A stretch of 64,000 nucleotides of DNA, taken from assembly GCA_032622095.1 (NCBI GenBank), contig CP136062.1, forward strand, positions 139,580,351 to 139,644,350, written 5' to 3'. The notes beneath the pieces were generated by a model, which worked only from the letters and a program-made list of their open reading frames with translations, searched no databases and was not told where the DNA came from. Below, one piece after another: positions 4,080 through 58,571 of the stretch. This DNA comes from Siphonodentalium dalli (taxonomy: Eukaryota > Mollusca > Scaphopoda > Gadilida > Siphonodentaliidae). Numbering within the stretch: position 1 is the first letter of the stretch; each line of letters begins with the position of its first letter. Position numbers and translations under genes: made by a program.

Positions 4080-4342
4080 TTAACCATTCCATGACTGGAG
4101 CTTCCTGAAATTTTGCGAAAACCCTGTGCCAATGCATTTTCTTATATATGCGAGTCACAAATATGGTGCCTCACATATATAACAGAATGCATTGGCCTAA
4201 CAACATTTATCTTGATCTTGTAAGCCATTGAATTCTCTTATATATGCGAGGTTTGCTATGGGAGACTTGCATATACAAGAGAATGCAATGGCAAAGTGTC
4301 TTTAATGCTGCACCAGTGCAGCTCCCATCATGAAAGGGTTAA
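4080..4342 (-). mobile_element. family B MITE, full length
   Basis: Flanked by TTAA on both sides (4080-4083, 4339-4342). Starts CCATTCCATGACTGGAGC and ends GCAGCTCCCATCATGAAAGGG. Both inner hairpins are present. Coordinates for B, C, D, G and H include the flanking TTAA. Confidence 0.88.
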
Positions 4343-11259: not shown

Positions 11260-11518
11260 ATAACCCTTTCATGAAGGGAACTGTGCTGGTGCAGCATAAA
11301 AGATACTGTGCCAGTGCTCCCATAGGGAGCCTCACAAATATAAGAGAATGCACTGGCTTACAAGGTCAAGGTAAATATTGTTAGGCCAATGTATCCTCTT
11401 ACATGTATATATGTGAGGCTCCATATGAGAGACTCGCATATATAAGAGAATGCATTGGCACAGGGTTTTTCGAAAAAATTCAGGTACATGTACTAGTAGC
11501 TCCAGTCATGGAAGTTTA
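11260..11518 (+). mobile_element. family B MITE, degenerate
   Basis: Starts TAACCCTTTCATGAAGGG and ends CTCCAGTCATGGAAG. The first hairpin is reduced, and the TTAA flanks are mutated (TATAA, TTTAG). Confidence 0.82.
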
Positions 11519-12437: not shown

Positions 12438-12711
12438 CTAGTAATGCTCTAATTAATCGACCTCTTAACCAAAGCAGAATTATGGGTAACTTTTCAGGAT
12501 TTAGTCGGAAATATGGCTTGTTGCCATTCATCGGAAAGCTCTCGGGTAACTTTTCAGGATTTAGTCGGAAATATGGCTTGTTGCCATTCATCGGAAAGCT
12601 CTCGGCGAGAGCTTTCCGATGAATGGCAACAAGCCATATTTCCGACTAAATCCTGAAAAGTTACCCATAATTCTGCTTTGGTTAAGAGGTCGATTAATTA
12701 GAGCATTACTG
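12438..12711. mobile_element. family A MITE with internal tandem duplication
   Basis: Subfamily with mirrored CCAAAGCAG and CTGCTTTGG. The 60-bp segment from GGGTAACTTTTCAGG to CGGAAAGCTCTC is present twice in tandem in the left arm. TA flanks. Confidence 0.92.
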
Positions 12712-14671
12712 TACTAGTAAGGCTATGATACTGCCAGAGACACCAGTAGCATCAGCTATCCTGGTCTGTCATCATCAACTAGTCATCATATACTACTAGT
12801 AAGTAGTGGATATATGATGGCTTAACTCTTTGTTTGGGCTTTGAACTTGACATACTTTTTACACCACATGTTGTTTATCACTGACTGATTTCTCATTCAG
12901 GGGTTTATGGCTGATAAAACTGATTCATGGGGACTCCTATTTCACAATTAATGTTCAAAACATATGTTATTCCTGTCTGTCAGAAATATTTGTGAGGGTT
13001 GTATGGAGGTCAGGCAAAGATAACAATATCATTTATGGCTCAGTGCTGGATATCATTAGTCCTAACACTGAAATATCCATGGGATGTCACTATGATGGTT
13101 TGATGATAAGAAAACTGGAGACCACCCTAGGAGCTTGTTGTTATGACAAACATTCGTTTTTAATTTAAATTTTTTTTTAAAGTTTTTATGTTGTTTTCTT
13201 AAGGACAAGTCCATATGAATCCATCAAAGATGTGAGACTGATTTCCCTTTTTGATGGCATATATGTATGTCACTGCAAATATACATATGTACAGGGTTAC
13301 TTCTACTGGTAGATTCAATTTTTATTTGGTATACTTGTGTGTTCAAAATTCTACATTTCCTTCTGTTTGGGGTTGCAGAGACTCAGCTGGTAAGATGCAT
13401 AGTGCTTTGAGCTATTATATAAAACCATCCAGCAATACAGCATTGGTTCAATTCATGGTACAAGTGGATTCATGTTCCACGCAAATGATGAGTAGTCTGT
13501 TTCATGTATCTTTTCAATTTTGTCAGTTGCCTACTGGGGTTGGTGGTAATTGCATGCAGTGGATCCAGTTATATGCCAGAAAAATTAACCCTCGATGTAT
13601 TCTATTCTACACCAATACAACTGACGTCATGATATGGCCTTGTGGCTGAAATGACAGCACTAAGATAATAAATACCCAACCCACATCAACAACCAAAGTT
13701 TCATGGAATTTTTCAAACTGGTTGCCCACAATAAGCTGATGATACTGATGTTTGATGGTGATTGTTGGACATCATTTAAACAATATTTTACTGCATCCCA
13801 GGATTCCCTTGCCTTTGATATTTCTGGTAGGATGGCATGATGAATCATTGATGTGGATATCCTGATATTGCGATATTGCATGTCTGGACTGGGCAGCCCT
13901 AATTGCCACTGATATCATAAACTGATGGCAGCCATGTTATTAATACATGAGGATTTCTGACATAACCACTGTTTGATCACATAAAACTCTGCTGCCATCT
14001 TTATCACAGGTTATAATCATAATCTCCAAACCATTGACCAAACAGTCCAGGATAACACAGCCATATCTCCGAGTTCGAGGACATTAGCACTAAAGCAAAC
14101 GGCTAATGATATCCGTTTCATTGCTCATGTGCCATAGATTTGGTATATTTATATGTTTACCTGGGTATACATATATTTTACAGGTATTATGTACTTTATG
14201 CTACATTGCATATTGGTATTTGCCTACATACTAGTACATGCAGCTTATCAATACTTGTAGCTACAGCCCCAGTCAAGTTTGGAAGTTATAGCTTGTGTTA
14301 TCGCCACACTGGCATTATGAAGTTAAGTACATGTATATACCGTAATGTATTTCGTTTTTCAAAATGTGCATACCGGTATATATGAGCTGGTATTTTCGCA
14401 GAAATTTATTTCTTGTCGTTTTATTGACAAGACTTGGTTGCGGTATTTGAAGTCTACTTTGTATGAGATCCGCGTATTAAGGTACAAGGTGCTGAATTTT
14501 GACCCCTTCTATAAACTTGCTAGACCAACTATCCATATGTGAAGTTTAAATTTCTGTTCCTATCATGATCCCAGGATGAAAATAAGTCATGAAAAATATG
14601 GCTGAAAAAACTCTGACAGACTTCAAGTGTTATCAACAGATCCATCTTTAGAGGGTTTTCATCATCTCTTA
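12712..14671. other. intron 2 stretch, nothing recognised
   Basis: A 132-codon open stretch at 13251-13649 has no family resemblance, and its GTTGCAG...GTAAGA borders would give an 11-nt exon. Otherwise unique AT-rich sequence. Confidence 0.5.
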
Positions 14672-19232: not shown

Positions 19233-19495
19233 TTAACCCTTTCATGGCGGGAGCCGTACTGGTGCAGCATTAAAGATCCTGTGCCAGTGCATTCTCTTAT
19301 ATGCGAGTCTCCCAACAGGAGTCTCACATATAAAAGAGAATGCACTGGTTTACAAGGTCAAGGTAAATACTGCTAGGCCAATGATTTCTCTTTTAGATGC
19401 GAGGCTCCCTATGGGAGACTCGCATATATAAGAGAATGCATTGGCACAGGGTTTATTGCAAAATTTCAGGAAGCTCCAGTCATGGAAGGGTTTAA
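19233..19495 (+). mobile_element. family B MITE, full length
   Basis: TTAA flanks, CCCTTTCATGGCGGGAGC start, GTCATGGAAGGG end, both inner hairpins present. Confidence 0.9.
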
Positions 19496-36299: not shown

Positions 36300-36315
36300 G
36301 TGAGTAAGTCAATCA

Positions 36316-36502
36316 ATTGCATATACGAGAATGTACTGGCTTGCAAGGTAAATGTAAATGTTGTTAGGCCAATGTATTCTCTTATATATGCGAGGGTCCA
36401 TATGGGAGACTTTCATAATTATATAAGAGAATACATTGGTAGTACCAATTTGGTACAGGGTTTTCGCAAAATTTCAGGAAGCTCCAGTCATGGAAGTGTT
36501 AA
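36316..36502 (+). mobile_element. family B MITE, left end missing, next to exon 3
   Basis: Starts within the first hairpin (CATATACGAGAATGTACTGG), keeps the second, and ends CATGGAAGTGTTAA. It begins about 16 bp after the exon 3 donor. Confidence 0.85.
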
Positions 36503-40677: not shown

Positions 40678-40939
40678 TTAATCCTTTCACGATGGGAGCT
40701 GCGCTGGTGCAGCATTAAAGATCCTGTGCCAGTGCATTGTCTTATATATGCGAGTCTCCCATAGGGAGCCTCGCGTATATAAGAGAATGCACTGGCTTAT
40801 ACAGTCAAGGTAAATATTGTTAGGCCAATGCATTCTCTTATATATGCGAGGCTCCCTATGGGAGACTTGCATATATAAGAGAATGTATTGGCACAGGGTT
40901 TCGCAAAATTTCAGAAAGCTCCAGTCATAAAAGGGTTAA
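40678..40939 (+). mobile_element. family B MITE, full length, close to consensus
   Basis: TTAA flanks; starts TCCTTTCACGATGGGAGC and ends CAGTCATAAAAGGG. Both inner hairpins are nearly perfect. It lies 190 bp after exon 4. Confidence 0.92.
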
Positions 40940-41144
40940 ACAATGCTTGAAGAGATAAAACTACTAGAGAGATAGAGAGAAATTCAATGATTGTCAATCC
41001 ATAATTGACTGGAATCTCATATCTTTATAAATTTTCCTAATGGTTCCTTCCCATAAAACTTCCTTCAAACATTTTGTCAAGGTCATCAGGGAATGAAAGT
41101 TTAACCTGTCACCAGAGTTGTATTCGAATCTGTGTTATTCTGTG

Positions 41145-41330
41145 TTCGTGAATGACAGGTTACCAAGTCCCTATACTAAATCTTGAACGGGAACACTGGC
41201 ATGTGGCCACACGTCATTTTTGCTGGTCACAATTTAGGGAGTAAGAATCTGGACCCACGAACGTGACGTGCGTCCACGTGCCAGTGTTCCCATTTTGTAT
41301 ATGGTCTGAGGTAACCTGTCATTCACGAAC
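41145..41330. mobile_element. family J palindrome
   Basis: GTTCGTGAATGACAGGTTAC and its complement form the ends. A second paired block GGGAACACTGGCA / TGCCAGTGTTCCC lies inside. Single copy in the window. Confidence 0.7.
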
Positions 41331-41396
41331 GAACTAACAACGTTTAGTTGTTTGGAGTGCTCTTGTGATGCTGAGTCTTTTTTTACTGGGTTTTAC

Positions 41397-41773
41397 TTAA
41401 CCCTTTACCCAACAAACCGGCCAAAAACGCCCAAATAAAGATTCAACAGCCTAAAATATCTTTGGTCTGTCTCAATAACACCATACAAATATGGATATCA
41501 TTGGAACCGGTTCATTGACCACATTGTGATGGTTACAGTTATGCCCTGTGCCAATGCATTCTCTTATATATCCGAGTCGACCATAGGTCGCCTCGCATAT
41601 ATAAGAGAATGCATTGGCCTAAAAAAACAATTTTATCATTTTTTCTTACATTTTTATCATTTTTAATATGTTAAGCCAATGCATTCTCTTATATATGCGA
41701 GGCGACCTATGGTCGACTCGCATATATAAGAGAATGCATTCGCACAGGGCCGTTCTGTTGGGTAAAGGGTTAA
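41397..41773 (-). mobile_element. family C TTAA double-hairpin element, copy 1
   Basis: TTAA flanks; TIRs CCCTTTACCCAACA and GTTGGGTAAAGGG. One side holds two hairpins of the B core with the variant loop stem TCGACCATAGGTCG; the other holds C-specific unique sequence (CCGGCCAAAAACGCCC). Confidence 0.92.
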
Positions 41774-42585
41774 TGTAAATTACATAAATTCAAAATTGAT
41801 CAGTTGTGTTTACTGTCGCTGGTATAGGTTAGTTAACCAGCATAATGTATTAGAATGACTCCAGCTTCTTTTTGTTATTCATTGATTGACATGCCTCGTT
41901 GTTTTGTTATCGTTGGCGAAGACGATTATCTTGTGTATGCAGCCTATGTCTAATCCAGTTCATCCAACATTCATTGTGTGCATTGCAGCTTGTTCAATCA
42001 CTAGTTGCTGTAACAGGGTCTGGTCCTACTGTTCTCCATATTATATGTGATGTGTGGGTATGTTTGGGTTTCATTCAGCGAACAATAAACTGCATTAAAA
42101 ATGAATTGAAGTTCATTGATCTGAGAACGTTGAGTCGTCTGTACATGTTGACGTCTGAACAATGATCTGTATTAACATCCGCATGTTTTCTCTCGGCTTG
42201 TTATCACCATCTGTCGAAGTGGTTTGTAGCCAACAAGTGGGTTTTGTTGAAATTAAAAACATACATCTGAGCTTATTGTAAATTTTGACAATGGTATTAG
42301 TCTCACTGTTTTGACAGTTTTGTGTTTTGAAACATTCGGCCACCTATATCCACCCTACATTCCATAGTTGTGATCATTTCTTAATAAGAATGTAACTCTG
42401 CGTATGTATTTGTTGTTTTGATTGGTGAAATTGGGGTTGTTGATGATTATATATTCTGCAAATACGCAAGGCATTTATCTTGACAAAACATAAATTCTTA
42501 CTTCCTGTGTTCATTGTGTGTGACACCAGCGCATGTAATATTATGGAAAATTAAAAACTTATTTTGAGCTACAGTAACAGTTATA

Positions 42586-42915
42586 GCTAAACACTTGTGA
42601 TTAAGTTGACTTGAACCTTTTAACCCTTTCATGATGGGAGCTGCACTGGTGCAGCATTAAAGATCCTGTTCCAGTGCATTCTCTTATATATGCGAGTCTC
42701 CCATAGTATGTCTCACATATATAAGAGAATGCACTGGCTTACAAGGACAAGGTAAATATATTAGGCCTGTGTATTCTCTTATATATGTGAGGCTCCCTGT
42801 GCGAAACTCGCATATATAAGAGAATGCATTGGCACAGGATTTTCCCAAAATTTCAGGAAGCTCCAGTCATGGAAGGGCTAAACACAGGTGATTAAGTCAA
42901 CTTGAACCTTTTAAC
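42586..42915 (+). repeat. 37-bp direct repeats flanking a B element
   Basis: CTAAACACTTGTGATTAAGT before and CTAAACACAGGTGATTAAGT after, each continuing ACTTGAACCTTTTAA. The flank is much longer than a TTAA duplication. Confidence 0.8.
42620..42881 (+). mobile_element. family B MITE, full length
   Basis: CCCTTTCATGATGGGAGC start, CAGTCATGGAAGGG end; left TTAA, right CTAA. Both hairpins are present. Confidence 0.9.
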
Positions 42916-43773
42916 ACATTATCTTGAAGGGACAGATGGGTTGATAGAAACTATTTGGTTGCAACAGATCCTGCAGTGATTCTAGTATGCCAAAAAATGT
43001 CTTATCCAGAGTCCAGACCTATCATTTTAGTTCTTATGTTTAATGCTGACTGACACTGAAAAAAATGAAAAGTTATTTCTAGTTTGAAGGAACTAAAACC
43101 TGAGAAAGTTTTCTTTGATCTCAAATTTAGAAAGACGAAAGTATTGTCGGTGTTTGTTAGATAATTAGATATTAGTTGCCAATTCTGTCAGCCTCCCTGG
43201 CCAGACATTCTGTGTCTTTGAAAACAAAATTGTTTGAGAAGCACCAGCAGATTCTTTGCAGATCCTTGAAGATATTCTGGCAAACAAAGACTAATTTATG
43301 GAAAGAAGTCATCGTAACCAAGGCCATTCTTGTGCAAAACAGCCCTCCCTTCCTGAACATATGTTGTTGCCACTTGACGTTCTATACTGTATGTAATGCT
43401 ATGATTCAGGCCATTTGGTTTTAAACTTTAGTTTATATATGCCTGTTGAAAGATGGCTGTATTATGTAATCATTATACAGTTTATTATTTGTCAAAAAGG
43501 CAAAATAAAGTGGTTTATTTCTCATGCAACAGAGCGAAATCTCTTCAAATCAAAATGAAATTTGCCTTGATGGAGGGTCCTAACAAGATAGTGTTCACCC
43601 TATTACTAATGATGTTCCGAATGTGTTCTAAAAATAGCCCCTTTTACCATCCTGTTTGAAGGCGTGTATTATATATATGAGAAAAATTCTAAATAAAATC
43701 CAATATTAATTTGATAGATGCTTATCTGGACAGGTGTCCTTGATTCATATCTAATATTTTATATCCTGGAATC
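42916..43773. other. intron 4 stretch, nothing recognised
   Basis: Unique sequence; short open stretches here show no family resemblance. Confidence 0.5.
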
Positions 43774-43775
43774 TA

Positions 43776-43981
43776 CAGTAATGCTCTAAGTAATCGACTT
43801 CTTAACCACAGCAGAATTTTGGGTAATATTTCAGGATTTAGTCGGAAATATGGCTTGTTGCCATTCATCGGAAAGCTCTCACTTTCCGATGAATGGCAAC
43901 AAGCCATATTTCCGACTAAATCCTGAAAAGTTACCAATAATTCTGCTGTGGTTAAGGAGTTGATTAATTAGAGCATTACTG
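43776..43981. mobile_element. family A MITE, arms from different subfamilies
   Basis: Left arm CTCTAAGTAATCGACTTC, right arm GGAGTTGATTAATTAGAGC: the arms do not mirror each other here. TA flanks. Confidence 0.9.
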
Positions 43982-44167
43982 TAGGAAGGTATACACTATC
44001 ATGTCCATTATTTATTTATTTTTTGGTGGGGGGGGGAGGGGGTTCCAGTTTACGTTTATATTGGCATTTGTTTCCATATTGTTGTTTCCCATAAGAAATT
44101 TTAATTTGTTCATGCAATAAACACTTCACGCTGAGCCAGTGTCGCTTAAACTCTGATATTCCACCTA

Positions 44168-44380
44168 CAGTAATGCCCTAAATGATCGACTTCTTAACCG
44201 CTGCAGAATTATGAGTAACTGTTCATGATTTAGTCGGAAATATGTCTTGTTGCCATTCATCGGAAAGCTCTCAGTGAGAGCATTCCGATGAATGGCAACA
44301 AGCCATATTTCCGACAAAATCCTGAAAAATTACCCATAATTTGGCTGTGGTTAAGGAGTTGACTATTTCGGGCATTACTG
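44168..44380. mobile_element. family A MITE
   Basis: CAGTAATGCCCTAAATGATC start, TTGACTATTTCGGGCATTAC end. TA flanks; several point changes in the arms. Confidence 0.9.
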
Positions 44381-44382
44381 TA

Positions 44383-45605
44383 TTTTCTTCAATTTATGGA
44401 AACGATTTCAGAAAAAAAAATCCAGAATTCCAGATTTTGTGGAAAAAAGTTGTAACAGTTAGCTTCGAAGATAGGCCTATACTCTATCTTTAAATTTGAT
44501 CAAATTATCATGTACTATTTTGTTTATGTAGCCTGAAAATATCTGTTCCATTTTCTGCAACAGGTTCACTTTTTATTATATAGAAAACTGCTCATTGGTT
44601 CATATCTGGGTGCCTTGAATACCACAACACTTGAACATTATGAAAACTCCTTCAGAAATATTACACATCATAAGTATTCTCACATGATTTTCTAGCCTTT
44701 TCCTGTATCCGGCTGGTGCAGGCAGAATGAGTAGCTCTGTTACCACCAGCCTTTGATGGCTTTCTCTGAGTATTTTTCCTCTATCATCTGTTCTATCATA
44801 ACAAATTAGTAATTTGTGTAGACTTCTGGATTACTGAGTTATTGCCCGAGTTATTGTGAGGACTAATTACGGTCTAGCACTCTGGGATGTTCACTGATTA
44901 AAGTCCTGTAGAGAAGTGGATGCTTTATTTTGTGGAATTTCGTCTTGTCCTTCTGCTGTAGTGATTCATTGTGCTCACGTTTCCTGGAAATTTTTCAATT
45001 TTCTTGAGAGGTCTTTTGATTACTTTGTGATGACTCATGGTGAGTATAAACAACAGCGTAAACATATGCATATCTACTCAGTGCTCATAACTTGCTTTGA
45101 GTATAAATTTTATTTCATTACCTAACAGCACTGAATGCGAATTCACTCGATGATGAAATTGATAAACATAGCATGTTAACACTCCTTTTTTGCCAAATCA
45201 TTTTAATTTCTGTTTCACTAGGTTTTCACTGTATTACATTCAACTAAATATGAAAATACAGAATACAAATATAATTCTCATTACTGAATGTTTAATTCTC
45301 ATTTAGTATTTTTTTTAGAAATCTCATTCTTCAGTGAAATTTCTCTTTAGATATATGGTATTGTCTGCATTACACGGCTTTCAAAGCAGCGTCTTTCATA
45401 GCACATGAGTTTCAAAACCATTTCACAATTTAAACCTATATGTTTCTGCAGTTAGAACTTTGGCCTTTATATGGTAGAACCAAATTCATATATTGAGTGT
45501 TCTCATAACAAAGCTTTCTGTTTCACAAAAATTGACATTTCCAGGTGCCTTGTTACATATAATAAACTAGGCCCCAAATGTTTTACTTCTGTTTTCACTG
45601 AGCCA
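44383..45605. other. intron 4 stretch, nothing recognised
   Basis: AT-rich unique sequence. Confidence 0.5.
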
Positions 45606-45854
45606 TTAACCCTTTCTACACTCAATTGACGAGTAGTTATCCCTTAGGAAACGTTTAGATAATAAGTTCAACAAACGAACATAGGTTGTTTGTTGAACTT
45701 ATATCTGAACATTGCCCTCCAATAAATAGGACTCCTTCTGCACTTGTATTATCTGTTGTCTGCTTACTTTTCCTCAACATCCCTCCAGATATACCATTCC
45801 GATGTGCAGTTTTATAACTGAGTGGGATAATCCATTTAGTATAGAACGGGTTAA
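45606..45854 (+). mobile_element. family G TTAA element, copy 3
   Basis: TTAA flanks; CCCTTTCTACACTCAATTG start and TTTAGTATAGAACGGG end. The inner hairpin AAGTTCAACAAACGAACA pairs with TTGTTTGTTGAACTT. Confidence 0.85.
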
Positions 45855-46739
45855 TTACAAATTTGTTTACATTCTGGATTCAATATTAAACAACAGCTAG
45901 AGGGTATACTATATCCAACAGTAAATCGTTCAGTATGGCCCTGAATAAATTTACCAATATTAAGTTATTAGGCCATGAATGGCTTAATCAAAACAAGCAA
46001 ATTAATCAATTGTTGACACCTGTTTCTTTTCTTTCCCACAATTGTCTCCAGTCTTGATGTATTGTTTCTTGTCCATTTCATATTTCACCATCTAATGCCC
46101 TCTGGGTACAGCTAAGTCTTAAGCCCTATAAATTATTGTATTAAAAAATGTGGACAAATTGTTTTACACTAATACTGCCCTGGGGGCAAGCAGCTGAGTT
46201 ATTAACACATAAAACATGAATGGTATATTATTCCCTTCACCTGGGGGTTAATGTAGTTGATTACCAAGGATAATATATTTGAATATAGTTTTGTTTACTT
46301 TGCAATCTTAGGCACTAGTTATATAAAGTGGTCTGAAGTTTGGGGTCATATTTTACCTGAAGTGGACATGGGTTATTTATAAAATTCTTATCAGCATGTT
46401 CTGGAATAATACCAAGCAGAGGGAGGATTTTTGCATGTTTTTGTTATAGAACTGGAGTTATAATTAATTCCTCAATTCATTGTCCATTATCGATCATACG
46501 ACACAGTATGGGGGTATGTATTTATTCACCATTGATAGTCCTTGACTATCTTTATTCAGGTGACATTATGGAAATGACCCACTTTAAACATGACTACCCA
46601 AATAATTTATTTGCCATATTTTTGAGTAATAATTGTATTCTCATTAACAAATAATCTAAATTGATATGGGTCAGGAGTTGGAAGATATTCATTATATTCA
46701 CTATTTTAATTACATGTTTTTGGCTCATTCCGAAATAGC
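45855..46739. other. intron 4 stretch, nothing recognised
   Basis: Unique sequence without palindromes. Confidence 0.5.
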
Positions 46740-47001
46740 TTAACCCTCTCCCGATGGGAGCTGCGTTGGTGCAGCATTAAATATCATGGCCAGTCCATTC
46801 TCTTATATATGCAAGTCTCCCATAGGGAGCCTTGTCTATATAAGAGAATACACTGGGTTACAATGTCCAGGTAAATATTGTTAGGCCAATGTAGTCTCTT
46901 ATATATGTGAGGCTTCCTTTAGGGGACTCGGATATACAATAGAATGCATTGGCACAGGATTTTCGCAAAACTTCAAGAAGCTCCAGTCGTGGAAGGGTTA
47001 A
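46740..47001 (+). mobile_element. family B MITE, full length
   Basis: TTAA flanks; CCCTCTCCCGATGGGAGC start, CAGTCGTGGAAGGG end; both hairpins with scattered mismatches. Confidence 0.9.
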
Positions 47002-47008
47002 CAGATAC

Positions 47009-47190
47009 ATGAAATACCTATATAAGGACAGTAAAGAACGCACTTTATATCCACCAATATAAGGACTGCAAAGAATGCTCTTTATATCAACCAACAAACC
47101 ATAAGCTTGTTTTCCTTTTTGAGGAAATAATCTCTGTCACTTCAGTAAATATTTCCATGGTATATAAGGTCTGTATATAGGTATTTCATG
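47009..47190. repeat. inverted repeat enclosing a two-unit tandem repeat
   Basis: CATGAAATACCTATATAAGG and CTGTATATAGGTATTTCATG are mirrored. Inside, TATAAGGAC(A/T)G(T/C)AAAGAA(C/T)GC is repeated twice. Confidence 0.7.
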
Positions 47191-47293
47191 TTTTAATCAA
47201 CCTATATCTATATGAATGCCTAAAACATGGCAAATGTCAAGCAAGTTCTATTGGTTAAATGTTTAGATTGAGGCTTGTAATGCACATTATATA

Positions 47294-47510
47294 CAGTAAT
47301 GTTCTAAGTAATCGACTTCTTAACCACAGCAGAATTATGGGTAACTTTTCAGTATTTAGTCAGAAATATCGCTTGTTGCCATTCATCCATATTTCCATTC
47401 ATTCGAGAGCTTTCCGATGAATGGCAACAAGCCATATTTCCGACTAAATCTTGAAAAGTTACCCCATAATTCTGCTGTGGTTAAGAAGTCGATTACTTAG
47501 AGCATTACTG
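47294..47510. mobile_element. family A MITE
   Basis: Mirrored CTAAGTAATCGACTTCTTAA and TTAAGAAGTCGATTACTTAG. TA flanks. Confidence 0.92.
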
Positions 47511-47533
47511 TATGCCTTTACTTTAATTGTTGC

Positions 47534-47725
47534 CAAGCCTGAGTTCAGTGTGCCTGTCATTTGCAGAATGAGGTCCCCAGAGGGTGAATAAAGTGATGCT
47601 CTCCCGCACGGTGGGCTAGCATCACCATTCAACCTCCGGCAACCTCATTCTGCTTAGGCCTCAACTGATACGGGAGACCTTGGATCAGATTGAAGTTTCA
47701 AGAAGCTATCCATGTTTGATTGTGG
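47534..47725. mobile_element. family E fragment, left half
   Basis: CAAGCCTGAGTTCAGTGTG and one complete hairpin, then truncated just before the next E copy. Confidence 0.8.
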
Positions 47726-47733
47726 CTTGTAAG

Positions 47734-48129
47734 CAAGCCTGAGTTTAGTGTGTCTGTCATTTGCAGAATGAGGTCCCCAGAGGATGAATTAAGTGATTAT
47801 GTGATTCACCCTCTGGGGACCTCATTCTGCTTAGGCCTCATCTTCTCTGGTAAGTTTATTGATTATAAAATTTCTATAGAAACTTCTGCACATAGATTCT
47901 ATTTTTTGTTTAGTTTAGTTTCTCTATATCACCAAATCGAGGTTTCCAATATTTACCATTTGGGAACTTCAATCTGAGTCTATGCTCCCATAGCAGCTGA
48001 GGCCTATGCAGCATGAGGTCCCCAGAGGGTGAATTTAGTGATGCTATCCCGCATAGCGGGCTAGCATCACTAAATTCACCCTCTTGGGACCTCATTCTGT
48101 ACATGACAGGCACACTAAACTCAGGCTTG
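47734..48129. mobile_element. family E double-hairpin element, perfect 8-bp duplication
   Basis: TIRs CAAGCCTGAGTTTAGTGTG and mirror, flanked by CTTGTAAG on both sides (47726-47733 and 48130-48137). The right hairpin is complete and the left is reduced. Confidence 0.93.
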
Positions 48130-48459
48130 CTTGTAAGAGTTGAATCCCACAATTGACATTGATCACACTGTGTGGCCATCCAGCCCTTAATGTATTCTAT
48201 ATAAGCATCTGCTCTGATCTCTTCTATTTGTCCATCCATTCTGAAAGCCGTTCACTGTTTACTGTTCTTATTCCTCAGTACACAGACCTCCCTGTGCCAA
48301 ATTTACCAAATTTTGCTTTCATATTTGCTTATGTAGATGACAGCTTTACATCCTAAGTGATATGCACTACTAATAGTCTGGTTGCCCTTGTGGTTCTCTG
48401 GAAAAATGCTTAACCCATTCATTTCTTAACTCTTTCTTTACTAAGAACTCATTGACTTA

Positions 48460-48670
48460 GAGTAATGCCCTAAATAATCGACTCCTTAACCACAGCAGAA
48501 TTAAGGGTAATTTTTAAGGATTTAGTTGGAAATATGGCTTGTTCTATTCACTGGAAGCTCTCACTGAGAGCTTTCCGATGAATGGTAACAAGCCATATTT
48601 TCGACTAAATCCCGAAAAATTACCCATAATTCTGCTGTGGTTAAGGGGTCGATTATTTAGGGCATTATTG
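48460..48670. mobile_element. family A MITE with related empty site nearby
   Basis: TA flanks. The left end has G for the first C. The flanking GACT-TA-GTTG recurs uninterrupted at about 48947-48955. Confidence 0.92.
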
Positions 48671-48678
48671 TAGTTGTC

Positions 48679-48930
48679 TTAACACTTCCATGACTGGACC
48701 CTCCTGAAATTTAGCGAAAACCCTGTGCCAATGCATTCTCTTATATATGTGAGTCTCCCATAGGGAGCCTTGTATATGTAAGAGAATGCATTGGCCTAAC
48801 AATATTTACATTGACCTTGTAAGACAGTGCATACTCTTTTATATGCAATGCTCCCTATGGGAGACTTGCATATATAAGAAAATGCACTGGCACTGGATAT
48901 TTAATGCTGCACCAGCGCAGCTCCCTCCCT
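48679..48930 (-). mobile_element. family B MITE
   Basis: TTAACACTTCCATGACTGGA start, CAGCGCAGCTCCCTCCC end; both hairpins are present. The right TTAA is changed. Confidence 0.88.
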
Positions 48931-48958
48931 TAGCTAAGAACTCATTGACTTAGTTGCC

Positions 48959-49235
48959 TTAACCCTTTCTTGGCAGGAGCTAGGCTGGAGCAGCATTAAA
49001 GATTATGTGCCAGTTTATTCTTTAATAAGACTATTAAAATATATAGTAGTCTCGCATAGGGAGCCTCGCATATATAAGAGAATGCTCTTGCTTACAAGAT
49101 CAAGGTAAATATTGTTAGGCCAATGTATGCTCTTATATATGTGAGGCTCCCTTGGGGAGACTCGCATATATAAGAGAATGCATTGGCACAGGGTTTTCTA
49201 AAAATTTCAGGGAGCTCCAGTCATGAAAGTGTTAA
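48959..49235 (+). mobile_element. family B MITE
   Basis: TTAA flanks; CCCTTTCTTGGCAGGAGC start, AGTCATGAAAGTG end. The first hairpin is partly decayed. Confidence 0.88.
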
Positions 49236-49304
49236 GGTATGTTCAGATACTAAGTTCACAAAGAAATCCCTAAATACCCCAGACAAAGTCGGGCACATCA
49301 GCTA

Positions 49305-49402
49305 GTCTTATATATATATATGGGAGACTCGCATATATAAAAGCATGCACTGCCACAGGATTGTTAATGCTGCACCAGTGCAGCTCTAGTCATGTAAGGG
49401 TT
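49305..49402 (-). mobile_element. family B fragment
   Basis: One hairpin arm (GGGAGACTCGCATATATAA) and the end GCACCAGTGCAGCTCTAGTC. Confidence 0.82.
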
Positions 49403-49663
49403 TAGCAGACCACTACTTCCATTGAACAGTTTTCCTGCCTCTGAAACTATGGTCAATACCCAGTGGATGCCCAGTCCTGATCATCCATAAACTCTTGATT
49501 GGTTACACTGAAATGCATCTCTGGGGCCTGAGTCAGGATCATTAAAGATTGAGTCAATGATTTATCATGTGCAGTAATGAGCAATCAGACCAACAAACAT
49601 GATTAACCCCATTCCTTTAGAAGTGTCAATAATATATTCATTGCTATTCCTATGGGAGGAGAA

Positions 49664-49780
49664 AAATAATTCAACATACATCCCATATTTATGGTTCTGA
49701 ATAAAATATTTATAATGATCCCCAGAAACAATTAATTCAGCTTACATCCCATATTTAAGGTTCTGAATAAAATATTTTGG
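49664..49780 (+). repeat. imperfect two-copy tandem repeat
   Basis: AATTCA-CATACATCCCATAT and AATTCAGCTTACATCCCATA units share GGTTCTGAATAAAATATTT. Confidence 0.8.
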
Positions 49781-50228
49781 ACTGTCCTGTAGAATACTTG
49801 AATATTGGAGTTTTCTGATAATGGAAGTGTCCAAACCTCCTGGGATGGAAGAGATGAAATCTTTAAGATAGGGAGATTGGACATATTACTGTAGCATTCC
49901 CTTGGATTAATAATTCACAATGTGAGAAATGGAGCATTCAGAATACTTTCAGATACTAATCTTACTAAATTGCATGGGGGAATTCCTCAGGGAGAAACCA
50001 AAGGATATTGGATAAGTGCAGCTGTCAGTCTCCAACTAGGCCTACCAGCTCTCTCTTTCTGTACAGAGAGCCATTTCAGTACTAAAATTAAAACCAGCCA
50101 GCTATGTATAGCTAGTGCCAGGAATAAGAGAGTTGTTCAAACTCAAAATTGTTCAAGTCCTGGCCAAGTTCATCTGTCAGTCTCCGACCACATGGTCTGT
50201 TTGTCCATAGAATTCCTTTTCAGTGCCA

Positions 50229-50288
50229 GATAAAACATGGGTGGAAAAAGGAGAATGATAAAACATGGGTGGAAAAAGGAGAATGATA
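50229..50288 (+). repeat. 28-bp exact tandem duplication
   Basis: AAAACATGGGTGGAAAAAGG plus GAATGAT occurs twice head to tail. Confidence 0.9.
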
Positions 50289-50401
50289 ACTGCGGATATG
50301 GAGAAGGGTGTGGCTCAAGATTGCATTAACAATAGCTTAAAATGAATTTTAAATATTTCATTTCACCAAAAAGAATGGTTTAGTTGTCGGTTTTGCAGAA
50401 T

Positions 50402-50511
50402 TCAGTGAGAGCTTTCCGATGAATGGCAACAAGCCATATTTCCGACTAAATCCTGAAAAATTACCCATAATTCTCCTGTGGTTAATGAGTCGATTATTTA
50501 GAGCATTACTC
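50402..50511. mobile_element. family A MITE, right arm only
   Basis: Starts at the hairpin tip (GAGAGCTTTCCGATGAATGG) and runs to GAGCATTACTC. The whole left arm is absent. Confidence 0.9.
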
Positions 50512-50520
50512 TATGTAGAA

Positions 50521-50900
50521 ATCAGGATCAAAGTGGTTGCTTTTGGCTGTTATGATCAATATGTTGTCTTATGGAATGTTCCCTATGATCAGAATGCAAG
50601 GGAAACTGGTACGAAAAAAAATGTGGGACATCAAAGAATCAGAAATAAATACAAATAATCTGCAAACTATAGAAACATTCTGCAGGTAATTATTAATAAT
50701 TCTACAAAGCAAAACTAATATGAATACGATGCATGAAGCTTGCAGGCATCCTTCAAAATGTCAAAAGTGTGAAAATAATTTGGATGCTAAAGGAATAAAT
50801 ATAGGCTGAAGTGCACTGTTCCTTTGAGAATTAAGTCAGCCACGACAAAAGAAAGAGTACACGAGTGCATGTGCAGTATGGTTATGATAAGACTGTACTG
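50521..50900 (+). repeat. 375-bp direct duplication, copy 1
   Basis: High similarity to 51265-51640 over the whole length; for example CTACAAAGC-AAACTAATATG, GCATCCTTCAAAATGTCAAA and GTTCCTTTGAGAATTAAGTC occur in both. Confidence 0.92.
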
Positions 50901-51083
50901 GTTTTTGAACTCAGCATAGTTGAGAAAGTATCATATACACAGCATGTCAGTCAAATCAAACCTCAAGTCAAGTTTTGAAGAAGAAAAAAACTTGATTGAA
51001 TACTATGCGAGAAGTTCTATAATCAATAGATTTGTTTCAGTTACTGTAGCCAGATGCGCAGAATTCATTTCCAAGTTTATTAC

Positions 51084-51177
51084 ACAGGCCCCTGGTGAAA
51101 ATTACTAAAATACCAATATAGACTATACACTGGTATAGTCTATATTGGTATTTTAGTAATTTTCCCCAGGGGCCTGT
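51084..51177. repeat. near-perfect 94-bp hairpin
   Basis: ACAGGCCCCTGGTGAAAATT and its mirror pair with one mismatch, around a very small loop at GTATAGT/ACTATAC. Between the two copies of the 375-bp duplication. Possibly a small MITE; no clear target duplication. Confidence 0.85.
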
Positions 51178-51264
51178 GGTTCATTACCTTTCAACAGATG
51201 AAATTATGTGAAAAACAAAACTCCACTATTCTTTTAAACTGAGTAACATTTGCTGATGGTATGT

Positions 51265-51640
51265 ATCAATCTGGATCAAAGTGGCTACTCTTGGCTGCTA
51301 TAAGTTCAATGTTGTCATATGGAATGTTCCCCAATGATCAGAATTCAAGAGAAACTGGCGCGAAAACTAAAATGGATCATCAAAGAATCAGAAATAAAGG
51401 AAGAATATTCTGAATTTGTGAACTATAGAAACAGTCTGCAGGGAATGCATAATATTTCTACAAAGCGAAACTAATATGACTACGATGCATGAAGCTTGCA
51501 AGCATCCTTCAAAATGTCAAAAGTGTGAAACTAATTAGGATGCTAAAGGAATAGGCTGCAGTGCACTGTTCCTTTGAGAATTAAGTCAGCGACGACAAAA
51601 GAAAAGAGCACACAAGTGCAGTGCAGTATGGATATGATAA
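51265..51640 (+). repeat. 375-bp direct duplication, copy 2
   Basis: Partner of 50521-50900, about 745 bp apart. Differences include small deletions in ATAAATATAGGCTG and GTGCATGTGCAG. Confidence 0.92.
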
Positions 51641-52330
51641 TCATAGTGATGAATCGCCGATGATGATAAATGTGAAGACATTTCACAGCTCGCTGTTATA
51701 TAATCCACTAATCAATTATACACTGACATTAATTTGCATAATCACATGATGAGATTTGCATACAAAAACTTTTTTCAAAGCAGTTGAAAGGCAAACTGGA
51801 GATCTCAAACTCTAACAATTACATAGAATCAAAAGAGATGAAAGCGCTTTGTGATGTTTGAAGATTTCACGAATCAAAGGGTACGAACTCACGGTGGAAT
51901 ATCATCACCATATTTTGAAGTCATGAAACTTCAACCATCTCTTTCTACTGGAGACAAATTACAACCAACATATCACAAGAAGTCTGTTATTAAATTTTTT
52001 ATCCAAAACAATGAGAACTGTAAACTCAAAGCTTTCTCTTATTTCATTTGGAGACCCTTCATTTTCTGTCTTTGAAGGTTGATTCAATAGAGCTAAATTA
52101 AAGGGGAGAATTACAGAAGAGATTTGTGGACGCTTCTTTCCAATATGATGAATATTCAAAGCAAATTTGCAAGGAATTTGTTAGCTTTACGTGAAAGGAG
52201 GTTTGACAATAATTAAATATGGTCAAAAAGTGCAAGATAATAAAAATGATTATTTCAATTTACATCAATTTACATATAGGATGCCATCATTAAAACTCCA
52301 GTGTTCCCAGGAAAGTAACAAATAATTGAA
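51641..52330. other. intron 4 stretch, nothing recognised
   Basis: Unique AT-rich sequence. Confidence 0.5.
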
Positions 52331-52473
52331 ATATATAAGAGAATACATAGGCTTAACAATATTTACCTCGACCTTGTAAGCCACATTATATGTGAACGGC
52401 TCCCTATGAGATAATGAACTGGCACAGGATCTTTAATGCTGCAACAGCGCAGCTCCCGACATGAAAGGGTTAA
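52331..52473 (-). mobile_element. family B fragment
   Basis: Starts mid-hairpin (ATATATAAGAGAATACATAG) and ends CAGCTCCCGACATGAAAGGG-TTAA. Confidence 0.83.
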
Positions 52474-52677
52474 AAGTGTTCTAAAAGATACAGTTTCAAT
52501 TAAAATGTTGTAATGTTCTAAATTAGTAACATTTCCTGTCCCAGTTTGTGAAAAAAAATAGCAACAAAGATTATTTGATGGTGACAGAAGCTCCCATTAA
52601 GTGGTCTCTTATGACTCAAAATTATTATTTTATACCTTTGAATCAATACAGAAAGTTCAGGGAAGAGAAACACTATC

Positions 52678-52862
52678 TTAACACTTCCATGACTGGAGCT
52701 TTGTGAAATTTTGTGAAAACCCTGTGCCAATGCATTCTCTTATGTATGCGAGTCTACCATATGGAGCCTCGCTGGCCCACACATATATAAGAGATTACAT
52801 AGGCCTAACAATATTTACCTTGACGTTGTAAGGCAGTGCATTCTCTTATATATGCGAGGCTC
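52678..52862 (-). mobile_element. family B MITE, right end missing
   Basis: TTAACACTTCCATGACTGGA start, first hairpin, then half of the second ending TATATGCGAGGCTC. Confidence 0.85.
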
Positions 52863-53071
52863 ATTTGGTCTTCATTGCTACCCCAGGAGCACAGAAATCA
52901 TCCATGGGTGATGGGTAGGATTCCAAGAAAGGTCATATTTTTGAGCCAGGGGTCAATATATAATTAACATACTATGATGACAAGACAGTGAATTCAAACA
53001 GTATCTTTCCTCAGTACATACAATGGTTTTAATTCTGCAGATATTTCAGGCTCTGGGAAATTCCATATAAT

Positions 53072-53085
53072 GTCCCCCCCCCCCA
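53072..53085 (+). repeat. short C tract
   Basis: A run of C within TGTCCCCC...CACAT. Confidence 0.85.
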
Positions 53086-53145
53086 CATATCGGCATTTCA
53101 GTAGATCTCTTATATTGTAGTATTTTTAAAAGCCTCATGGAGGTT

Positions 53146-53385
53146 TTAACCCTTCTATAATGGGAACTTCCTGAAATTTTGCGAAAACTCTGTGCCAATG
53201 CATTCTCTTATATATGCGAGTCTCCCACAATGGAGCCTCTCATATATAAGAGAATGCATTGGCCTAACAATATTTACCTAGAACTTGTAAGCCAGTGCAT
53301 TCTCTTATATATTCGAGGCTCCCTCTGAGAGACTCGCATAAATAAGAGAATGCGGTGTCACATGATCTTTAATGCTGCACCAGCA
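53146..53385 (-). mobile_element. family B MITE, right end missing
   Basis: TTAACCCTTCTATAATGGGA start, both hairpins, then stops at AATGCTGCACCAGC. Confidence 0.86.
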
Positions 53386-56050
53386 TCATATATACTGGAC
53401 ATGTGTTAATTCATCCTCATCCTTTTAGAATAGCTTCATAGCTTGACATTCAATACAAAAGCTGTGTGCATGCAGCTTTATGCACTGGGTGACATTCGAA
53501 GACATCCATTCTGCAATAAGAGGGTTACACGGGAGGCAGTTTGCTTTGATATGACTTCAAGCTGCTTTGTGACTATAAAAATAATATTTATCATTGGCAG
53601 TCCTATCTGTTTATTTTATAACTGTGTGGCCTACTATCTATGTTATCTAGGAAGCACTCAGTTATACTATATCTCAAAAATGTAACTGATAAAAAACTTC
53701 TTTTGATGTTTGAATAGACCGGACACTGAGCAAGACTACAGATTGTTAAATGAAACAGTATACACCGTATTTTCAACAGTATAACATTGCGGTGATGTTT
53801 GGTGTCTAGTTGATAGGCATCAGAATAATTCATGTTTTGTTTTGTGGGAACATAGGTGTGCCGTTTTTAAAGATCTATAACCTGCATAAACTAAACATGA
53901 AACATGGAAATTGTCAACATTTGAGTTTCACATGATTCTTCATGCCCTTGAGATGGGAGCGATTGCTCTCACACTTGTATGCACTCGCAATTTTTAATTC
54001 AAGGGTGCTACAATTTGCACTCAGTCTTTCTTGTCAAAATGTTTATGGTCAATGTAATTGTTGATTCAATATTGATCTATTTGAAGGTATATTTAGAAAC
54101 ATTCCCATCTTAGTTACGTTATCGGCATGTGAAAGTGTAACTGGACATGGTCTATTTCACAATGAAATTTGTTTGAGAAAAACCCAACTTAAAATTATAT
54201 TAGGGCGCAATTACACCCGTCTATTGAATTATCAAGAGGAAATAAGTTCTCTCGCTGTGTTTTCCTCAGGATTTCATTGTTTTTATCAACATAGTAGCAG
54301 AATTTAGAAGTTTATAAAATATACTACAGCAAACAAGTATTAAATCTGGGAGATGGAAGCTTAAAATATACCTACATGCACATACATTGAAGATTTTCAA
54401 CTGATGTTGTAGTTTATTTTATGATTTGTAATGGTCTGTAAGTTTACCTCCACTTTTCAAAGAAAAATGATAAAGGCCCACTTAATTTTCGAATCCCCAG
54501 ATCACATTATATAAAATATATGCCATATTATATACCATTTGAAAGAGGAAGCTCCAATACATAGTATTATCAACTTATCCGGTGTAATAAACTGTGAATA
54601 TGTTGTTTTTGTTGAGGTACCGATGTGTTTTCTGTGCTAAAGTTTCATCTGGACTGTATTGCAATGTCTATTATTTTTAATGGAGGGGAATAACTCTATA
54701 TCTTAGTTTGACTTCTGTTGCCTTCTGGGAGCGAAACGGGGGAAATGTTTCCATGAATTCAGCTATTTACTATTACTCTATGGGCACTGTCTCAGACACA
54801 GACGTTTCAAATGGTGATGAATTATTATAGTATTTTAATCATATTTTATGTCATATATTTATTAAAACTGAATAGATATCAAGGCATTATAAAAATAAAT
54901 AATCGGTGACTCGAAAATTAAATGGGCCTTTAAGTGTACTGGATGCCCATATTTTAATTTGGCACATTCTTATCTCATTATATCCAAACTTTTGATAGAC
55001 CAAAATTTCTAACTTGCTCTCCTGTGTATCATACCAATCTGTGTTACTTAGACACATACTGTATTCGTTCTAGATCCTGGGATTCTGGGAACTCCAAAAC
55101 TCCTGCTTCATTTTCCATTGGACCGATGTACAATGTACTAGATATCTTTATATCTTTATCAAGGATTTCTTTTCAAATTGTTGGCACAGAATATTCTTTT
55201 TTTCCTATTTCATTCCATGATAAAAACAATAAAATCATGAACTAAAATTATGGCATATTATGCCGCCATAGAGCTTCAATTCATTCAAATTAAATGTTCA
55301 CAGAGAATTTGTTCAAGCATTTTCCATGAAGATGCGGTAATAATTTCTGAAGTCGCTCTCAGTCCAGACCTCATGACGCGTAGATTCCCTTAATTAAATC
55401 TCACCATGCTGCCCTATGGGGTTCAATCTCTAATAATTTGTAATGCTGGTCTCGTTGCTCCAGCTATTTGACTAATAATATTGATCTTCTTCTCTATAAA
55501 CTTTACCTTAGGCTGCAGTGTAAATTGACTGCTGGCTTGTTTCGGGAGTCGCAGGAAGCTGTTTTACACGTCGAACACGCAGATTCCAATATCCGCTCAC
55601 TCCCAATTAGGGACCGCCAATCAATAGAAGCCAGGCTGGATGTTGTGATTGTCCCACGAGGTTTAGTCATGGCTTTCGTGCATGTCTACGGCAGGAAATT
55701 AGACTTATGAATTCTACTAACTCGTCCTATTGATTTGGTTTATCAAATTAGGCTCCCTCTAGTCAATCAGTATGTTCTAATCTTGACGTATGTAGGTGGT
55801 TTGGGATTTAACAGAATGCTGATTTAGTCTTTTTAGACATCTTAATAACTGGAGGAGAAAGACGTCAACACTTTCAAATTACGAACCTTCAATTTTTAAG
55901 TCGCAAGACAAAATGTGCTTCCATTCTGTCTGCCGTATAATTGTATTTTGAAACATGCTATGGTGGATTTATTACAATTTAATGCTATGGTGGATTTATT
56001 ACAATTTATTCCTTTAGAAATGAGTCTTTATTATGGTGCTATCATGACAC
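53386..56050. other. intron 4 stretch without recognised repeats
   Basis: The longest repeat-free part of the window (about 2.6 kb) apart from a 26-bp tandem duplication at 55956-56008. An open stretch at 55468-55710 is less AT-rich but matches no family I know and has no good splice borders. Candidate place for conserved regulatory DNA. Confidence 0.45.
55956..56008 (+). repeat. 26-bp tandem duplication
   Basis: TGCTATGGTGGATTTATTAC plus AATTTA occurs twice in succession. Confidence 0.92.
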
Positions 56051-56078
56051 TGTCAGTTTTAGTGGGGAAGAAATTTGA

Positions 56079-56107
56079 GGGGGGGGGGGGGGTTTGGGGG
56101 GGGGGAG
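56079..56107 (+). repeat. G-rich tracts, possible quadruplex
   Basis: Two G runs of about 10-13 separated by TTT, followed by GAGG. Confidence 0.85.
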
Positions 56108-56194
56108 GTGTTAGCCATGAAAAATGACATGTTCTTCCTACCCCTGAGAATGATTATCTATAGTTTGTTATTTGTTCAGATATACTCTCCTGAA

Positions 56195-56402
56195 TTGGAG
56201 GATATATAAAATATATAATAAAGTGTAGGATCTGTCTGTGTGTCCGTCCGTCTGTCTGTTTGCAATTTTTCTTCCAGACCCCTTGACTGATTTAAACTAA
56301 ATTTGGTGTGGTGACTCAGGGTTCCCCGGTGGATGTTATAACGGTGTTAGTTTTTCAAAAGTTTCATTTAAAAAAAATTAGTTTTATTTAAAAGAAAAAA
56401 AG
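56195..56402 (+). mobile_element. family K repeat, possibly Helitron-like, copy 2
   Basis: Parallel to the - strand of 37500-37745: AAATTTGGTGTGGTGACTCA, then CCCCGGTGGATGTTATAACG. Preceded by CTGTCTGTGTGTCCGTCCGT. Confidence 0.45.
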
Positions 56403-56487
56403 GGAATCCTGTCAGTAGAGAAACAAAATCCTAATCACAGTTCCACCTGTTCCACAGACGTAAATCTGATAAAATTATCAATGGTTT

Positions 56488-56749
56488 TTAACCCTTTCAT
56501 GATGGGTGCTGCGCTGGGGGCAGCAGTAAGATCCTGTGCCAGTGCATGCTCTTACATATGCGAGTCTCTCAAAGGGAGCCTCGCATATAGAAGAGAATGC
56601 ACTGGCTTACAAGGTCAATTTAATATTGTTAGGCCTCTGTATTTTCTTATATATCCGAGGCTCCCTATAGGAGACTCGCATATATAAGAGAATGCATTGG
56701 CACAGGATTTTCGCAAAATTTCAGGAAGCTCTAGTCATGGAAGGGTTAA
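56488..56749 (+). mobile_element. family B MITE, full length
   Basis: TTAA flanks; CCCTTTCATGATGGGTGC start, TAGTCATGGAAGGG end; both hairpins are present. Confidence 0.92.
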
Positions 56750-58045
56750 AGAGACTGATGAAAACAGTGTAGAATAAAAGGAATAATCGCCTGGAATTCA
56801 TGCTGTGCACTATATACATGTACATGTAGTTACCATGCATTAGGTAATAATATTTCATTTGAGCTGAGTTCTTGACACTCTCTTTTATAGTGGTATTTTA
56901 TTCTAAATATAATTATATTCATATTATAAAAGAGAAAATCCTCAAGAATTCATGCAGTGCACTACAGTGTACCGCTTCAGCAACAATTTCATCAAGTGGT
57001 GACAAAGTCAAACAGGTGTTGTGAGAGTAACACCTCAGTTGTTGTTTGTATCATGGAATCCAGGAGCGTCCCTCTGATATTTTTACCTGAGCAATTAGTG
57101 AGCCAAAATTGCCTGCTTCTCAATCATCTTCCTTTGATGTCTAGAGTAAGTTGTCAGATTGTTGAACACTGGTAATGTTTCAGGCCAGGATGTGAATAAC
57201 GCTTAATGACGCACAAGTCATTACCAGCCTGATAGTAGATTTATAACCCAGAGTTACATTCTCTTTATCATCGCTGAATGAGCTGGTGATAGTGGAAAAA
57301 AGCATGTTTGCTCATAGCGTGTGGTCCAGTGTCATATGAGGATTCAGTGAAATGAAACATACTGTCTAGATAACTAAAATTCTGACAGATAACAATTCTT
57401 GAGTTCTCTTGCACCATAACAATGATAAAATTGTTTCATTTTATGCACTCAATTTTTTCTTGGAGGCCATAACAAAAATATGTTCTGTTTACATTTTCTC
57501 TACCAACACATTTTATCCCTTTAACCCATTCAGTTATAAAAGTGTACATTGGAATGGTCTATTATTCATCTGGACCATGCCATGAATCTCTACTATGGCT
57601 AACGCCCGTAGATATCATATTCCACCAACACAAAATCTGGGATTTTTTTTTTTTGGACAGGGAACCTTGTAAAGTCGAAAAAATAACACGGGGAATATAT
57701 TTCTTAGTTAATACCTGTTCTTTAATAATGTACTTCACTGTAGTTGAAGGTCCCAACTCGAAATTGCACGATTTAAGTGACTGTGAGCGATTTTGCTTTG
57801 CGTCGCTTACAACTATGGAATTTTTCCTGGGTAATTATTTAAATGTTTATTGCAATATAGGCTCACAAAAGTCACAGAAAAGCATGCAATCTCAAGTTGC
57901 GACCACCCCTAATGTGAATTAGATTATTGAGGAAAAAGTATTAACAAAGAAATATATTCCCTGCCTTGTTTGTTCAATGTTACAAAGTTCTCTGTCAGAA
58001 CATGAAAAAGTTCCCAGGTTCTGTACTGGTGGAATATGATACCTA

Positions 58046-58571
58046 CAGTAATGCTCTAATTAATCCCCCCGAGAGCTTTCCGATGAATGGCAACAAGCCA
58101 TATTTCCGACTAAATCCTGAAAAGTTACCCATAATTCTGCTTTGGTTAAGAGGTCGATTAACCCTTTACCCAACAGAACGGCCCTGTGCCAATGCATTCT
58201 CTTATATATGCGAGTCGACCATAGGTCGCCTCGCATATATAAGAGAATGCATTGGCTTAACACATTAAAAATTATAAAATTGTTAAAGAATGTAAGAAAA
58301 AATGGTAAAAAGTGTTAAAAACAGATTTTTTTTAGGCCAATGCATTCTCTTATATATGCGAGGCGACCTATGGTCGACTCGCATATATAAGAGAATGCAT
58401 TGGCACAGGACATAACTGTAACTATCACAATGTGGTCAAGGAGCCGGTTCCAATGATATCCATATTTGTATGGTTCTATTGAGACAGACCGAAGATATTT
58501 TAGGCTGTTGAAGCTTTATTTGGCCGGTTTTGGCCGGTTTGTTGGGTAAAGGGTTAATTAGAGCATTGCTG
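58046..58571. mobile_element. family A MITE hosting a C element
   Basis: CAGTAATGCTCTAATTAATC start, most of the left arm deleted. The right arm is split inside CGATTAATTAGAGC at its TTAA. TA flanks inside F. Confidence 0.93.
58158..58557 (+). mobile_element. family C TTAA double-hairpin element, copy 2
   Basis: CCCTTTACCCAACA and GTTTGTTGGGTAAAGGG ends with TTAA on both sides. The hairpins carry GAGTCGACCATAGGTCG and the mirror. Inserted into A, so the TTAA duplication is proven by the A consensus. Confidence 0.95.

Follow-up and report, generated by a model that had tools for sequence, protein, structure and literature searches.

A 64,000-nucleotide stretch of the genome of the scaphopod mollusc Siphonodentalium dalli (GenBank assembly GCA_032622095.1, contig CP136062.1, positions 139,580,351 to 139,644,350; hereafter the window, numbered from its first letter) contains two groups of short repeats, B and C, which share a core of two hairpins. 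Judged by their target and tips alone, B and C are probably two families of small, non-coding miniature inverted-repeat transposable elements (MITEs) of the piggyBac, or TTAA, type. The stems of the hairpins differ between and within the families by changes that match on both sides, and these look like one-off changes in founders that were then inherited by each subfamily, not like structure kept in every copy.

Insertion at TTAA and assignment of B and C

A paralogous empty site establishes that the C element at 58158-58557 (C58158) inserted at a TTAA with target duplication. When its flanks are joined with a single TTAA, 32 stretches of the repeat in which it lies (the A repeat) match across the junction in the window, and the best of these, at 12634-12713, is identical at 79 of 80 positions with one TTAA (69 of 70 with a shorter query). 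For the other eight elements tested, a search of the window gave no empty site save a weak match for B46740 (76.8% over 56 nt). TTAA is present at both ends in six of the nine elements tested and, with one altered letter at one end, in two more; for the ninth, the end was guessed.

The original prediction covered 40678-58557 and was incomplete in two respects, as B copies also lie beyond this range (near 489, 4080, 11260, 19233, and 36300) and a matched difference within B, at pair 5 of the stem, was not listed. Several B copies are truncated. The copies within that range are as follows.

40678..40939, plus strand: B element, TTAA at both ends; hairpins 40728-40796 and 40824-40892
41397..41773, minus strand: C element, TTAA at both ends; hairpins 41550-41618 and 41675-41743
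42620..42881, plus strand: B element, left TTAA, right CTAA; hairpins 42670-42738 and 42765-42833
46740..47001, plus strand: B element, TTAA at both ends; hairpins 46789-46857 and 46885-46953
48679..48928, minus strand: B element that lacks its left tip, with an approximate end; hairpins 48727-48795 and 48823-48891
48959..49235, plus strand: B element, first arm altered; second hairpin 49119-49187
49297..49404, minus strand: B fragment that keeps the left end and some of hairpin 1; inner limit approximate
52331..52473, minus strand: B fragment, left end, rearranged hairpin 1, and start of hairpin 2; inner end approximate
52678..52885, minus strand: B fragment that keeps the right end, a hairpin 2 bearing an insertion, and some of hairpin 1; inner limit approximate
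53146..53395, minus strand: B element, left tip degraded, end approximate; hairpins 53194-53263 and 53291-53359
56488..56749, plus strand: B element, TTAA at both ends; hairpins 56538-56606 and 56633-56701
58158..58557, plus strand: C element, TTAA at both ends, within a copy of the A repeat; hairpins 58188-58256 and 58336-58404

Outside it lie the remaining B copies and the empty site.

489..676, minus strand: B fragment, ends approximate
4080..4342, minus strand: B element (B4342), TTAA at both ends; hairpin 2 with a tip variant of its own
11260..11511, plus strand: B element, part of hairpin 1 deleted; end approximate
12634..12713, plus strand: paralogous empty site, unbroken relative of the repeat split by C58158; one TTAA; 98.75% over 80 nt
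19233..19494, plus strand: B element, right end TTTA
36300..36500, plus strand: B fragment, right arm expanded; ends approximate

Elements of both families start with TTAACCCTTT and finish with AAAGGGTTAA or a near variant. Near-complete B elements measure 262-263 bp (all five of those found as end pairs), and the two C elements 377 and 400 bp. In both C copies the first 16 nt, including TTAA, are the same at both ends, while the consensus ends of B match at 16 of 19 positions when counted by eye. As defined in the description given by PMC2872659, MITEs of the piggyBac type have CC[C/T]T termini and inverted repeats of about 12-19 bp. B and C combine TTAA duplication with CC[C/T]T inverted termini and are short, without coding capacity. 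A Kolobok or T2-MITE origin was ruled out, as the ends of B and C begin with CCC and not with the RR described for those elements (PMC9587614, PMC6004289).

Anatomy and folding of the four-arm core

Each full element had been predicted to hold two hairpins, the second being the reverse complement of the first, so that one motif would occur four times in alternating orientation. This is borne out by the arm motif GCCAATGCATTCTCTTATAT, which has 52 matches at up to three mismatches in the whole window, against a mean of 0.02 over 100 shuffles. Between 40678 and 58557 lie 36 of the 52 and, among the 17 exact matches, 14. In complete elements the orientation runs + - + -, at 40728+, 40777-, 40824+, and 40873- in one case and at 58188+, 58237-, 58336+, and 58385- in another. 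A hairpin comprises 69 nt, with 27 bp, a mismatch, 5 bp, and a 3-nt loop, and GCCAATGCATTCTCTTATAT forms its arms. A complete B or C element carries hairpin 1, a spacer, and then hairpin 2, which is the reverse complement of hairpin 1 down to the mismatch and loop.

Our alignment of the core comprised 15 B-type copies or fragments and two C copies. In the B consensus, pair 5 and arm position 8 are the only places at which hairpin 2 is not the exact reverse complement of hairpin 1. In C58158 all 64 local pairs and all 69 long pairs are intact, and the four arms are identical; C41397 has two mismatches in local and two in long pairs. The internal stem mismatch of B is T.C in hairpin 1, or T.T in 3 of 10 copies, and is unpaired in every copy counted; in hairpin 2 it is G.A in 13/13 copies. 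Conservation of mismatch and loop shows that hairpin 2 arose as an inverted copy of the entire hairpin 1 and was not separately made, and the four-fold motif arises because the hairpin sits within inverted ends, so that the second end carries its reverse complement.

The alignment also confirms that B and C have a common core but different outer sequences. The flanks common to both cores are CCTGTG on the outside, TTA beside each hairpin on the inner side (adjoining GGC or GCC), and CACAGG; beyond the CCCTTT tips, the outer parts and spacers of the two families are otherwise unlike, as compared by eye. The core was also considered as a separate nested transposon and rejected, as target duplication was not seen by eye at its borders. 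It could be supposed that the B and C cores descend from two ancestral hairpins that already differed before inverted duplication, in keeping with MITE birth by end duplication. The four identical arms of C58158 fit this, as does the derivation of hairpin 2 as a whole from hairpin 1. However, both arms of a single hairpin must still have changed together, and the boundaries that B and C share on both hairpin sides suggest one doubled ancestor, so that we regard an origin from two ancestors as rather unlikely.

The proposal that the element can fold either as two hairpins or as one long one agrees with local and long pairings that are both near-perfect. As single-stranded DNA, the two cores folded against shuffles did far better than these (z -24 for C58158 and z -21 for B40678), and the optimal fold of each was one long hairpin. 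Whole-core energy lay below the sum of the separately folded halves in 8/8 cores, a result expected by construction, and in B46740 the gap between the two energies is only 0.6 kcal/mol.

Matched changes and their likely origin

The hairpin tips read CTCCCATAGGGAG in B and CGACCATAGGTCG in both hairpins of both C copies. The C change thus affects two adjacent pairs in all four arms and, the pairs being adjacent, may be one event. The prediction that the tips had changed on both stem sides stands for these pairs; the nearby stem mismatch is never paired. A second matched difference lies at pair 5, which is G-C in B hairpin 1 and A-T in B hairpin 2 and in C. As its two sides pair within each local hairpin but not in the long fold, the change must have been made hairpin by hairpin. 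Separately, B4342 shows a third variant of the tip in its hairpin 2, where two pairs are compensated and one is mismatched, and this copy may represent a further subfamily.

The chance of finding three compensated pairs among six random differences in 32 bp is roughly 2.5e-6, a post hoc estimate. The founders hence hardly reached their matched pairs by independent hits, and either arm copying or selection acted. In the explanation that we consider rather likely, B and C are TTAA MITEs in which one arm was copied to another in founders, followed by spread through transposition. A transposase encoded elsewhere in the genome, putatively of the piggyBac (DDE_Tnp_1_7) type, would move B and C into TTAA sites, and the two families, with their different outer ends, would owe their common core to exchange or shared descent. 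In a founder, a mutated arm could have been copied onto its partner arm via template switching at the hairpin, giving rise to the tip change and to the pair-5 difference within B, and the tip change would additionally have been copied onto the other element end. Transposition would then have multiplied the matched changes, and after insertion the copies would decay arm by arm. Several matched changes together in one stem are, in the account of PMC8794818, enriched and attributed to template switching.

How the changes are distributed over the copies bears directly on this explanation. Among 21 B hairpins, 12 cells (one stem pair in one hairpin) are changed on both sides, 7 of them at pair 5. 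Addition of the four C hairpins (24 distinct rows of 25) brings these to 18, of which 14 belong to just three pairs, with seven at pair 5 and four and three at the two tip pairs; B4342, and not a C copy, supplies one of the four, and it also supplies one of those at pair 5. Incomplete hairpins near 590, 11284, 36321, 49039, 49308, 52333, 52386, and 52832 were omitted from these alignments (A1 and A2). Matched changes are thus concentrated in the pairs diagnostic of subfamilies. The number of pairs with any both-side change is unremarkable, being reached by 88/500 and 71/500 plain shuffles in the two alignments; a high cell count with an ordinary pair count points to a small number of pairs that many copies inherited. 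The slid controls give lower scores, as is usual for a structure derived from the same sequences.

Decay within B is mostly one-sided. With hairpins 1 and 2 treated as separate classes, and 14 of the 15 B rows used (B49380 being left out), a total of 779 stem cells, the mismatch position included, shows 124 changes confined to a single side and 8 that affect both. Compensated doubles within classes number six, against a shuffled mean of 3.2 (P=0.076, 5000 shuffles). B4342 accounts for three of the six, a CpG pair, at which the two arms decay in the same way, for two, and B489, whose first hairpin is partly deleted and doubtfully aligned there, for one. The subfamily changes of B hairpin 2 are mostly unmatched as well: position 8 is T in 8 of 14 copies and, in the seven with a readable partner, unmatched in six and matched in one, while position 4 is T in 4 of 14 copies, unmatched in the three that retain a partner. 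We observe no sign that structure is maintained after insertion. The original suggestion that structure, or a copying process that preserves it, is maintained accordingly holds insofar as the matched changes need a common cause, but not for ongoing maintenance, which is weakened both by the within-class result and by these unmatched changes. It had named an absence of covariation beyond subfamily ancestry as what would count against it, and within the window this is largely what was found.

Several observations weigh against founder copying followed by transposition. Only two C copies are present, and hence the tip difference between B and C amounts to one subfamily comparison. Only one pair lies between the stem mismatch and the changed tip pairs, and the mismatch is unpaired in all copies counted, so that any copied tract must have been short. 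The authors of PMC8794818 themselves call the evidence that template switching maintains short stems circumstantial. At position 8 of hairpin 2, the one matched case, B36300, has the pair restored as T-A. The longest stop-to-stop frame in the window has 149 aa, and neither an autonomous partner nor a transposase was found there. Selection on symmetric sites in founders predicts the same pattern of matched changes. Finally, in plain shuffles of the two alignments, the both-side cells and the covariation score were reached in 0/500 each, and the share of paired cells in 3/500 and 0/500; high values of all three are also what structural selection would produce.

The whole-alignment covariation score and the both-side cells, which exceed all 500 shuffles, and the very stable folding could be taken to mean that the hairpin is under ongoing selection as RNA or as a cruciform, for instance as a small-RNA precursor or a regulatory RNA. 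We consider this very improbable. The excess lies mostly in the subfamily-diagnostic pairs, the pair number is ordinary, the within-class doubles reach only P=0.076, and one-sided changes far outnumber two-sided ones. The position-8 T is unmatched in six of seven readable copies, although it would leave a G-U pair on one RNA strand. Non-CpG divergence in nine near-complete B copies (9 of the 15 B rows, six being left out) is 91/1168 in hairpins and 106/1084 outside, which is not a significant difference (P 0.10), and the B tips diverge by 12-13% (16/135 and 17/135). A search of the whole window against Rfam gave no matches above the gathering threshold.

Not all of the rivals exclude founder copying. 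In the main one, the arms are symmetric sites for a transposase dimer, and selection at the transposition step altered both half-sites together when transposase specificity shifted between B and C, so that special copying would be unnecessary. Protein binding may indeed be the role of the core: in the accounts of PMC7351741 and PMC11707139, pairs of C-terminal domains bind palindromic subterminal sites in piggyBac and, in piggyBat, at the left end, and in C the changed pairs occupy the hairpin tip of each of the four arms. The right outer arm of B hairpin 2 (40866-40892 in B40678) has the lowest divergence among the B segments compared, 5/225 against 184/1997 elsewhere, with a column-permutation minimum-window P of 0.0028 for a segment picked after seeing the data. 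Against its own partner arm it shows 5/225 to 19/225 (P 0.005), but without three polymorphic columns and their partners this becomes 5/198 to 10/198 (P 0.29) in the nine copies and 7/286 to 15/286 (P 0.13) in 13 copies. As the contrast is lost without those columns, we regard the slow arm as suggestive of a binding site but not robust, and do not rely on it. It is, moreover, a single arm, and the terminal repeats, which a transposase would also need, are not slow (left terminal tip 33/205). The hairpin, with 32 bp and a mismatch, is also far longer than the 19-bp piggyBac repeat, and no transposase is known for B or C. Selection on symmetric sites is a serious but doubtful alternative.

A further, improbable reading joins binding to copying. 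The doubled hairpin would be a transferable mobility module acquired by TTAA elements with different ends, and its tip a specificity code common to the four arms, kept uniform by arm copying and switched as a unit together with the transposase.

Other repeats in the window and relation to known systems

Other elements in the window also have TTAA ends. One of 215 bp, at 6650-6864, is a near-perfect end-to-end palindrome (fold -160 kcal/mol with RNA parameters), and those at 24255-24468, 25243-25521, and 45606-45854 have CCCTTTCT tips and an interior hairpin, from which it follows that B and C are not alone in the window in having internal palindromes. The A repeat is an abundant inverted-repeat element with ends like CAGTAATGC beside TA, found at 12440-12713, 43764-43986, 44156-44387, and 58769-58994, among others; we presume that it could be a Tc1/mariner-type MITE. 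Stretches resembling TTCACCCTCTGGGGACCTCATTCTGC, in both orientations, form a further repeat family near 9684, 9985, 11012, 27851, 28102, 47588, 47805, 48033, 60837, and 61104. A Pfam scan of 20 of the 97 window frames of at least 75 aa returned no transposase, only sub-cut-off matches (DUF7292 and HSNSD-CE); in the reverse-strand frame at 17344-17697, those to DUF7292 (E 0.00012) and heparan sulfate N-deacetylase (E 0.024) are unreliable.

Exact 21-22 nt patterns of the arm or the A repeat had no match in viral contig or genome contig collections. A literature survey by words, not by sequence, in a limited collection gave no description of B or C elements among the titles and abstract openings listed. 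As far as their sequences indicate, B and C would be an addition to the known TTAA MITE type, with each ingredient already known. Their significance could lie in the compensated base-pair changes, which are usually taken as proof of functional RNA and can be traced here mainly to the founders of transposon subfamilies, perhaps through arm copying.

Such compensation has a parallel in the template-switch hairpins described in PMC8794818, where several compensated pairs arise by copying one side of a stem from the other, as we propose for B and C. The cases treated there concern rRNA and microRNA genes, whereas here the setting is transposon founders with an uncorrected mismatch near the tip. 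The ends of piggyBac and piggyBat combine, like those of B and C, a TTAA target with a palindromic subterminal sequence, but the piggyBac palindrome is a 19-bp repeat and that of piggyBat an imperfect one of 12-14 bp at the left end only, as described in PMC7351741 and PMC11707139, against a 69-nt hairpin at both ends in B and C. Kolobok and T2-MITE elements share the TTAA duplication, but, according to the descriptions in PMC6004289 and PMC9587614, start with RR where B and C have CC.

The closest description is that of the CMITE families of Acropora corals in PMC2872659, which, like B and C, are TTAA-flanked, CC[C/T]T-tipped, and non-coding, with different terminal repeats and a conserved internal region. 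The likeness is one of description, and the ends given in Table 1 of that paper agree with those of B or C for at most the first eight letters. CMITEs are about 100 bp long with one 75-base internal region, compared with 262-263 bp in B and 377 or 400 bp in C and two inverted hairpins. In the passages of PMC2872659 that deal with it, the origin of the common internal region of the coral elements is left open, and the same unexplained pattern, of TTAA MITEs with different ends and a conserved core, recurs here with a different architecture.

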